From contig NZ_CP108100.1 of NCBI RefSeq assembly GCF_036195045.1, positions 1,240,001 through 1,304,000 of the forward strand: a DNA stretch of 64,000 bases, given 5' to 3'. The notes under the pieces are model-generated. The model was not told where the DNA came from. It saw only the letters and a list, made by a program, of their open reading frames with translations, and made no database searches. Each line of letters begins with the position of its first letter. Positions within the stretch are counted from its first letter, which is position 1. A program made the translations under genes and the position numbers. Shown piece after piece: positions 19,117-20,701 of this stretch. The DNA is from Streptomyces sp. NBC_00236. Its GTDB lineage: Bacteria; Actinomycetota; Actinomycetes; Streptomycetales; Streptomycetaceae.

Positions 19117-20559
19117 TCAGCCGACCGGGGCGCCGAACCACCGGGGCAGCCGGTCGAGCAGTTCCTGCTGGTCCTCACCGGCCCACACCACGTGGCCGTC
19201 CGGACGCAGCAGGACCGCGGGCACGTCCAGGTCCTCGCTGCCGTCCACCACGTGGTCGACCCGGTCCGCCCAGCCCGCCACCGAGAGCCGGCCCGTCCGG
19301 TCGACGAGCAGCCCGCGCCCTCGGTGCATCAGGGAGTAGAGGCGCCGCCCGTCCTTCAGCTCCACGTCCGGCATCCGGCGGCCGAGCAGCGCGTGGCCCT
19401 CGCCTACGTCGTAACGGATGTCGAGCGCGGTGATCATCCCGGTCATGTAGCGGTTCACCTCCTCGAAACCCATCAGCTTCGTGTACAGCGCCCGCAACGC
19501 GGTCGCGCCCGGGTCGGTCCCCAGGAGCGTGATCTGCGCACGGGTGTTGTCCAGCACGGCGGCGCCCACCGGGTGCCGTTCGGAGTGATAGCTGTCCAGC
19601 AGGCCCTCCGGCGCCCAGCCGTGGATCTCCGCGGCCAGCTTCCAGCCGAGGTTGAAGGCGTCCTGGACGCCGAGGTTGAGCCCCTGCCCGCCGGTCGGCG
19701 GATGGATGTGCGCCGCGTCTCCGGCCAGCAGCACCCGGCCGGCGCGGTAGTGCTCGGCCTGCCGGGTGGCGTCGCCGAACCGGGACATCCAGCGCGGCGA
19801 GTGCACGCCGAAGTCGGTGCCCGCGACCGCCCGGAGCCGCTCCTTGAAGTCCTCCAGCGTCGGCGGGGACGTACGGTCCTCGCGGACGCCGTCCGCGGGT
19901 ACGACGACGCGGCACACCCCGTCCTTCCCGGGACTGACCCCGAACCGCAACTGGGTCCTGCGGACGTCCGCGACGACGGCGGCGATCTTCTCGGGGTCCT
20001 CGGTCACCTCCATCTCCCCCAGCAGCGTCTCGACCGTGGCCGCCTCGCCGGGGAAACCGATCCCGGCCAGCTTGCGCACCGCGCTGCGGCCGCCGTCGCA
20101 GCCGACGAGGTAGCGCGAGCGCAGCCGTGTGCCGTCCGCCAGTCCGACGGTCACACCGGCTTCGTCCCCCTCTGCGGACCGGCTGAGCGCGACCACTTCG
20201 CACCCGCGCCGGATCTCCGTACCGAGTTCGACCGCCCGCTCCTCGAGAAGCCGCTCGGTGACCGGCTGCGGGGTGGCGAGGCCGTACGGATGGGCCGTGT
20301 CCAGCCCGTCCGGCCATGCCGTGGCGATTCCGCCGAAGAGGCCGCCGACCTGGAACCTCTCGCTCACCGCCGTGAACCGCTCCAGCAGGCCGCGCTGGTC
20401 CATCACCTCGACGCTGCGCGCGTGCAGACCCTGCCCGCGGGACTCCCCCGTCGGTCCGGTCAGCTTCTCCAGCACGACGACACGCACGTCGTGCAGCCGC
20501 AGCTCGGCGGCCAGCATCAATCCGGTCGGTCCGCCGCCGACCACGATCACATCAATCAT
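19117..20559 (-). CDS. rox: FAD-dependent monooxygenase, rifampicin monooxygenase (Rox)-like
   Basis: 480 residues, class-A flavoprotein hydroxylase. FAD-binding VVGGGPTG (residues 6-13), the NADPH/FAD motif [10 protein letters not shown] and the [18 protein letters not shown] motif are all intact. [17 protein letters not shown] and LDTAHPYGL look like the rifampicin monooxygenases of S. venezuelae and Nocardia, which linearise or hydroxylate rifamycins. Other aromatic polyketide hydroxylases share the fold, so rifamycin as substrate is an inference, strengthened by the rifamycin-element-like palindrome 55 bases upstream. The start has only a weak Shine-Dalgarno (GGGTG). Confidence 0.8.
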
Positions 20560-20613
20560 CGAAACACCCGTTCAAGAGATCAGCGGACTTCGGCCGTGGC
20601 CGGTCATTCTGCG

Positions 20614-20650
20614 GCGCACCGGGGGCCTTGCCGCAAGGCCCCCGGTGCGC
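20614..20650. promoter_or_regulatory. Rifamycin-associated-element-like palindrome
   Basis: A 37-bp perfect dyad: 18-bp arms (20614-20631, 20633-20650) around one central base. The core GGGCCTTGCGGCAAGGCCC (minus strand) closely matches the 19-bp element I recall upstream of actinomycete rifamycin-inactivation genes. The minus-strand TTGCGG in the core could serve as a -35 with CAGAAT 19 nt on. As RNA it could also fold as a hairpin ending the ABC-F transcript. Confidence 0.75.
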
Positions 20651-20701
20651 TATATCTTGAAACCGGCAGGGAGGCGTTGCACTCCTTGCCATTTGTCTTT
20701 C

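Follow-up and report, generated by a model that had tools for sequence, protein, structure and literature searches.

The window analysed here is a stretch of 64,000 nucleotides from Streptomyces sp. NBC_00236. On its minus strand, it carries a gene whose protein reaches 824 bits against rif_monoox, an NCBIfam equivalog model with a curated cut-off of 800 bits, and whose best PDB match is a rifampin monooxygenase chain, over residues 1-478 (Table 1). The gene is rox, with a predicted rifampin monooxygenase as its product, in agreement with the original prediction, which had read the flavoprotein downstream of a palindrome as a rifampicin monooxygenase. The centre of this palindrome lies 73 bp from the rox start codon. 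The 37-bp perfect inverted repeat that had been announced was recovered in full, with 18-nt arms on the plus strand (20614-20631 and 20633-20650) that are 100% complementary and separated by 1 nt. When the bases of the window were permuted inside 200-bp blocks, the longest arm across 20 replicates was 13, indicating that the palindrome is not due to chance. Other perfect inverted repeats of the window are found at 25099-25141 (21-bp arms, so that the palindrome before rox is not the longest of the window), 36013-36049 (17-bp arms) and 44307-44344 (16-bp arms); these are perhaps terminators.

Table 1. Features at the rox locus of the window, with the evidence on which each is called
Feature	Position	Strand	Evidence
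rox, predicted rifampin monooxygenase, 480 aa	19117..20559	-	NCBIfam NF033145 and best PDB match 5vqb
Predicted sense -10 CAGAAT, 19-bp spacer; start predicted near 20599-20600	20606..20611	-	position rule
37-bp perfect palindrome, 18-bp arms, 1 nt between	20614..20650	.	inverted-repeat search
RAE core, 19 bp, centre 20632	20623..20641	-	core-only profile, 27.6 bits
Predicted antisense -35 TTGCCG	20628..20633	+	mirror of sense box
Predicted sense -35 TTGCGG, overlapping the antisense -35	20631..20636	-	position rule from comparison
Predicted antisense -10 TATCTT, 19-bp spacer	20653..20658	+	position rule
Alternative -10 of sense promoter P1, CAAGAT, same bases as antisense -10	20654..20659	-	sequence
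Antisense terminator-like hairpin, followed by a T-rich tail	20665..20690	+	independent scan and pairing score
ABC-F ribosomal protection gene	20702..22408	-	family match

Directly upstream of rox and on the same strand lies an ABC-F ribosomal protection gene of the TlrC/CarA/OleB/SrmB family (914.6 bits for a cut-off of 800). The palindrome begins 51 bp past the stop codon of this gene, on its strand, and might simply be its terminator. We consider this extremely improbable, because a scan of the ABC-F strand returned no terminator-like site and because many genomes have the core of the palindrome upstream of rox, helR, rph, arr and rgt.

Rifamycin-associated elements (RAEs) are described as 19-bp palindromes possibly bound by an unknown factor (PMC12802891, PMC10719064). 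The middle 19 bp of the palindrome read exactly GGGCCTTGCGGCAAGGCCC on the minus strand and, allowing up to three mismatches, the sole further match in the whole window was the plus strand of the same site (0.08 expected). We searched the 8.3-Mb genome with a core-only profile of 24 columns, without structure, spanning -11 to +12 around the RAE centre. Three sites were obtained, each on both strands, with 19.5-28.4 bits, the next match scoring 13.6, and they lie upstream of rox, helR and rph. The proteins of the latter two were scored as partial pieces whose ends lie beyond the fetched loci. The first 470 aa of the HelR protein have HelR as their best family, with 740.6 bits across model positions 1-417 of 706 and a cut-off of 750 for the whole protein; for a 402-aa piece of the Rph protein, the rifamycin-inactivating phosphotransferase family comes first, with 733.3 bits across positions 1-398 of 864 and a cut-off of 999. 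The training set of the profile includes the three cores by letter, the rph core being identical to a rox core, so that these own-genome scores are partly self-matches. The weight of the scan lies in the fact that no other site comes near in score and that all three precede rifamycin-resistance genes. The 11-base inner core is not over-represented in the whole genome (3 matches versus 7 for a reversed control); this count alone therefore proves nothing, and it is the three neighbours that speak. The window site resembles published RAEs in being a 19-bp palindrome, in standing upstream of a rifamycin-resistance gene, as do the helR and rph sites, and in overlapping, as judged from the sequence TTGCGG-19-CAGAAT, the -35 of the downstream promoter. 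The rox, helR and rph found here also fit the gene set published for RAEs (PMC10719064, PMC10194278, PMC8655204, PMC7283461). The assignment, which is based on the palindrome described in reviews and on the sequence common to the upstream regions of rox, helR, rph, arr and rgt, is thus supported: the element at this locus is predicted to be an RAE and belongs to a known kind, and the reading of the core given by the original prediction stands.

To follow the element beyond this genome, three sets of sites were compared. The rox set consisted of the best 80 of 583 confirmed Rox relatives, about three quarters of them titled Streptomyces and the rest other actinobacteria. An RAE core was present within 350 bp of rox at 77 of these 80 loci, giving 78 rox sites with the window; loci L009, L029 and L068, which have no core within this distance, were left out. 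Two of them (L009 and L068) have no TTGCSGCAA core in 6.4 kb each, and the third (L029, S. albireticuli) has an RAE core followed by CAAAAT at the edge of the locus (positions 3-40), about 2.5 kb upstream of rox and on the same strand, so that this rox may stand further down an operon driven by the RAE. The phylum sample covered 396 genomes, 83 of which had a core-profile match at E 0.1 or better, many of them only at E 0.01-0.1 and possibly by chance. It yielded 64 sites (30 loci, 33 regions and L001), of which 57 were kept after dropping L124 (later assigned to rgt), L148, L149, L151, L152, L154 and L155, the last of which may be a degenerate true site; 20 of the 57 belong to the genus of the window, leaving 37. 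In the class sample, 134 of 296 genomes had a match at E 0.005 or better. The set taken from it comprised 87 loci, 27 of them new and 60 being regions picked from the better-scoring listed sites outside the genus. A gene was assigned to 78 of the 87, of which four belong to the genus, leaving 74. The nine loci with no gene assigned (L161, L182, L201, L212, L213, L215, L222, L228 and L239) were dropped; by eye, eight of these nine carry a core with similar flanks. One mis-registered site lying 79 bp from its contig end (L185) is counted among the 74 and was removed from the pooled set of 110 sites outside the genus. Downstream genes, assigned by tblastn or by reading translations, are rox at 40 of the pooled sites, helR at 42, rph at 11, rgt at nine and arr at eight. 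Among the gene queries themselves, arr scored above the cut-off of its family model, and the best family for rgt was Rgt with 544.9 bits, below the cut-off of 800. As sites were sampled by core score, weaker RAEs are under-represented. Six sites before rox or rph (L092, L100, L101, L104, L131 and L153) lie outside the class of the window and within the same phylum, so the RAE is older or more mobile than one class. The dropped L124 has its RAE before a glycosyltransferase best matching Rgt, in a genome that also carries an RAE before rox and another before helR.

Although the core is thus retained at orthologous rox loci, the outer arms are absent from most of them. Contiguous arms stop at 5 bp in 46 of the 78 rox sites (from the best 80 of 583) and reach 18 bp in two, one in the window and the other in the sister species S. 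poriferorum (L004); the Rox proteins of these two are 91% identical. We examined covariation in 77 distinct rox sites by permuting the right bases against the left ones within columns. None was found at ±6, ±10 and ±13 to 18; a small excess appeared at ±11/12, alike in the rox set and outside the genus, and position ±14 outside the genus was borderline (60 of 1000 shuffles). The outer flanks of rox sites were slightly more complementary to themselves than when cross-paired (4.55 versus 4.30), a value reached in 2 of 300 shuffles, or 3 of 300 without L004; outside the genus there was no overall excess (88 of 300 shuffles). The highest self-complementarity belongs to a few lineages with private extensions, namely the window with L004, L017 and L061 in the rox set and L205 with L208 outside the genus. 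L017, L061, L205 and L208 are other rox loci, and their long extensions differ in sequence. Finally, no Rfam family came near its gathering score in 20400-20900, the one match being a chance-level miRNA (21.5 bits versus 197).

The original prediction had supposed that the extra 9 bp on each side tighten control or act as RNA. The idea that the long palindrome itself is functional, whether as a hairpin in RNA or as an extended rox-specific operator, could draw on the perfect 18-bp arms, on the private extensions, on the within-site complementarity of the rox flanks and on the slight covariation at ±11/12. We nevertheless judge it very improbable given the short arms of most rox sites, the lack of covariation at most arm positions and of an overall excess outside the genus, and the Rfam result. 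An RNA role in particular is unlikely because only two of the 78 rox sites have 18-bp arms and because most arm positions do not covary. The perfection of the arms stands, and the special status claimed for their length holds in part, as two of the 78 rox sites have it. The extra 9 bp per arm look like a lineage quirk and not a conserved part, and the private extensions may have arisen when template switching now and then made an imperfect palindrome perfect.

What is conserved around the RAE centre in the 78 rox sites is a block from about -68 to +54, well past the 19 bp. On either strand, the invariant core TTGC-S-GCAA can be read as a -35 box, TTGCSG, and two -35-like boxes therefore overlap at the centre. 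In the rox set, each is followed by a 19-base spacer and a -10-like hexamer, CAGAAT at +21 to +26 on the sense strand and TANGTT at -21 to -26 on the antisense strand. A sigma-70 consensus scan of 20400-20900 returned no promoter-like site, so the promoter reading rests on comparison. For this comparison, sites were collected with the core-only profile, which ends at -11 and +12 and so does not bias the outcome at the hexamers; they were oriented by their downstream gene, and a -10-like hexamer with A at its second and T at its sixth base was sought exactly 21 bp from the centre. Outside the genus, the rule held for 36 of 37 sense and 37 of 37 antisense sides in the phylum set, and for 71 of 74 on each side in the class set. 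In the pooled 110 sites, CANAAT was found on the sense side in 107 and TANNNT on the antisense side in 108, with both present in 106. Since the two-sided rule needs no orientation, it could be recounted over all fetched sites with none dropped. Both hexamers were then present at 116 of the 126 sites from other genera, at all 25 from the genus of the window and at 76 of the 78 rox sites (from the best 80 of 583). The ten failures outside the genus are L112, L148, L149, L151, L152, L154, L155, L156, L157 and L183. At other offsets (8-45 in the phylum set, 12-35 in the class set), values were near zero, the exceptions being sense 23/24 and antisense 27, where neighbouring or overlapping conserved bases recur, and lower values of at most 16%. 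These data suggest that the RAE is the common, overlapping -35 region of two predicted mirror-image divergent promoters.

The sense promoter would find independent support at two arr loci. In M. smegmatis, arr transcription starts 31 bp before its GTG (PMC7882622); in L106 and L108, the GTG lies at +62 and +63 from the RAE centre, and the distance borrowed from M. smegmatis would place the start at +31/+32, 5-6 bp past the sense -10. On the antisense side, the predicted +1 is a G in 104 of the 110 sites outside the genus, the -12 base is conserved (T on the antisense strand, A at -21 on the sense strand) in 108, and the discriminator is purine-rich, whereas that of the sense promoter is C/G-rich. 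The -12 base, which is closer to consensus than that of the sense promoter, and the purine-rich discriminator may make the antisense promoter the stronger one. The core is also near-invariant at positions for which a -35 box has no need, namely C/G at ±5 and G/C runs at ±7 to 9.

A simple scan made before the promoter idea had returned a single plus-strand terminator-like hairpin (0.2 expected), and its first base, 20665, is the predicted antisense start. In the window, eight of the nine pairs of the stem are Watson-Crick, and the ninth is G.U when read on the antisense strand only. For scoring, the first arm was fixed at -33 to -41 in the rox set and in the helR and rph sites of the same genome; 79 of these 80 sites were scored, the contig of L012 beginning too near. 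Across the 79 sites (rox loci from the best 80 of 583), the stem has on average 8.3 of 9 Watson-Crick pairs compared with 6.05 for shuffled flanks, with 8 or 9 pairs at 68 sites and 7 or fewer at 11. Among the imperfect pairs, 35 read as G.U on the antisense strand and 13 do so on the sense strand. The stems vary in sequence, as in GGCGAGGAG/CTCCTCGCC and GGCAAGAGG/CCTCTTGCC. Outside the genus, a strong stem was seen at 57 of 110 sites versus 56 of 330 shuffles, at none of the eight arr sites, with a U-tail fraction of 0.26 versus 0.20 and a G.U polarity of 127 versus 87; the 84 stems with at least six Watson-Crick pairs carry 77 distinct 5' arms. With RNAfold, 26 of 37 sites outside the genus reached -8 kcal/mol or lower, versus 64 of 148 shuffles. 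Because the hairpin starts outside the genus pile up at the first permitted position (-29, 28 of 84), only the rox set, with its arm fixed at -33, gives firm ground for a stem start at +1. The hairpin is a common and not a universal part, given the 57 of 110 sites, its absence from the arr sites and the weak U-tail. The predicted antisense start would thus run into a terminator-like hairpin at most rox sites and at fewer sites elsewhere. Neither this hairpin nor the symmetric -10-like elements figured in the original prediction.

Conventionally, the RAE would be an operator lying between a pair of sense promoters (P1 and P2) and served by a putative activator; the bases at -27 to -22 would form the -10 of P1, and no functional antisense promoter would exist. 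M. smegmatis helD is indeed described with P1 and P2 starts that have been mapped and with an RAE overlapping the -35 of P2 (PMC10719064), and a hexamer CANNNT fits the same two invariant bases (A at -26 and T at -22) as the antisense -10. However, such a P1 would be without a -35, TTG occurring at 15-20 bp spacing in only 0-3 of the 110 sites. Conservation is also higher for the antisense -12 base, unchanged in 108 of the 110, than for the would-be -12 base of P1 at -27, where 88 sites have C and 18 have T. One would further have to take the mirrored position, at exactly 21 bp, as accidental, and the rox-set antisense hairpin with its U-rich tail would be left with no evident role. The P1 start reported about 20 bp before the RAE (PMC10719064) does not agree with a -10 at -27 to -22. 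We therefore regard this organization as rather unlikely, while giving it real weight.

How the RAE works remains to be elucidated according to a paper of January 2026 (PMC12802891), and a review of February 2026 states that the mechanism of the drug induction of arr and helR in M. abscessus is yet to be known (PMC13001253). The reading that we favour, and hold with modest confidence to be probably right, is that the RAE controls rox as the centre of two mirror-image predicted promoters, rifamycin redirecting polymerase by way of a factor bound to the core. Both promoters would be active. The sense promoter would drive rox, and the antisense promoter would start a short RNA that, at most rox sites, runs straight into a hairpin terminator. 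A putative dimeric factor would read the core, and rifamycin, or the polymerase that it blocks, would alter the effect of this factor so that polymerase is redirected from antisense to sense. The extra 9 bp per arm would be a dispensable addition of this lineage, perhaps the product of template switching at an imperfect palindrome. A dimeric factor is favoured by the constraint on the core, which goes far beyond the needs of a -35 box, and by the failure of a simple polymerase-competition model to give induction. In this model, which has five states and two mutually exclusive directions, rifamycin raised sense output more than 1.5-fold in none of 20000 random parameter sets. Plain polymerase competition was accordingly rejected as the sensor.

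Polymerase might still act by itself as an alarm, with a stronger antisense promoter silencing the sense one until rifamycin arrests polymerase there, as for helD in B. subtilis, where the same stronger-antisense logic is described (PMC12802891). When faster eviction of the rifampicin-bound polymerase was added to the model, sense output rose more than 1.5-fold in 538 and more than 10-fold in 54 of the 20000 sets. Without this extra step there was no such induction, and HelR does not provide it in general: the first 470 aa of the HelR from the window's genome had no match at E 1e-10 in 14 of 42 genomes carrying an RAE, or in 12 of 39 when only genomes with a completeness of at least 90% and a contamination of at most 5% are counted. 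HelR eviction was rejected as a general mechanism on this ground. Moreover, polymerases at the RAE would overlap and exclude each other, and in B. subtilis a 17-bp shortening of the gap abolished induction (PMC12802891). An alarm made of polymerase only is therefore improbable. The 14 genomes without a HelR/HelD match at E 1e-10, G096, G150, G377 and G385 among them, carry their RAE before rox, rph or arr.

Returning to the mirror-image promoters with a core-binding factor, we compared this predicted arrangement with known systems, as far as the available parts of the cited accounts describe them. Compared with published RAE accounts, the window site differs by its 37-bp palindrome, its mirror-image antisense promoter sequence and its antisense terminator-like hairpin. 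An antisense promoter or terminator at the RAE is not mentioned in the available parts of PMC12802891, PMC10719064 and PMC13001253. The helD/pps alarm of B. subtilis is alike in that a sense promoter is opposed by an antisense one before rifampicin-resistance genes. However, its promoters are convergent and do not overlap (PMC12802891), while the predicted RAE promoters are divergent, the -10-like elements facing outwards from the centre, and their -35 boxes overlap in sequence, which would leave no room for both to be occupied at once. The RAE is not a member of the dual-promoter alarm of B. subtilis, though alike in its sense-antisense opposition. With the bidirectional promoters of E. coli, it would share pseudo-symmetric DNA and two mutually exclusive polymerase orientations, but these promoters have a -10 in common (PMC12825309), whereas the RAE would share the -35 region, with -10 elements 41 bp apart. 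No shared -10 was found at the RAE centre; the bases at -27 to -21 could be common to a sense P1 and the antisense promoter. The control of rpoB-rpoC in mycobacteria is similar in that rifampicin blocks one promoter and thereby raises the output of another, and differs in that its promoters are in tandem on the sense strand, with transcribed sequence between them and no RAE mentioned in the available account (PMC6181997).

If borne out, the mirror-image architecture predicted from these comparisons would be a new description of the whole RAE kind. We suggest, tentatively and as a possibility about which we have more doubt than belief, that the RAE is an orientation switch in which a palindromic -35 and a conserved antisense counter-promoter, often with a terminator, would let rifamycin flip polymerase to the sense direction. 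If the divergent promoters exist, the antisense RNA would be a simple readout, making the RAE question directly testable, and the actinobacterial RAE would become comparable with the antisense-promoter alarm of B. subtilis. Finally, the antisense -10 region of most rox relatives, CGCTATANGTT, resembles with one extra base the motif CGCTATNGTT, which is quoted for promoter II of mycobacterial rpoB-rpoC (PMC6181997); in the window, positions 20648-20658 of the plus strand read CGCTATATCTT.
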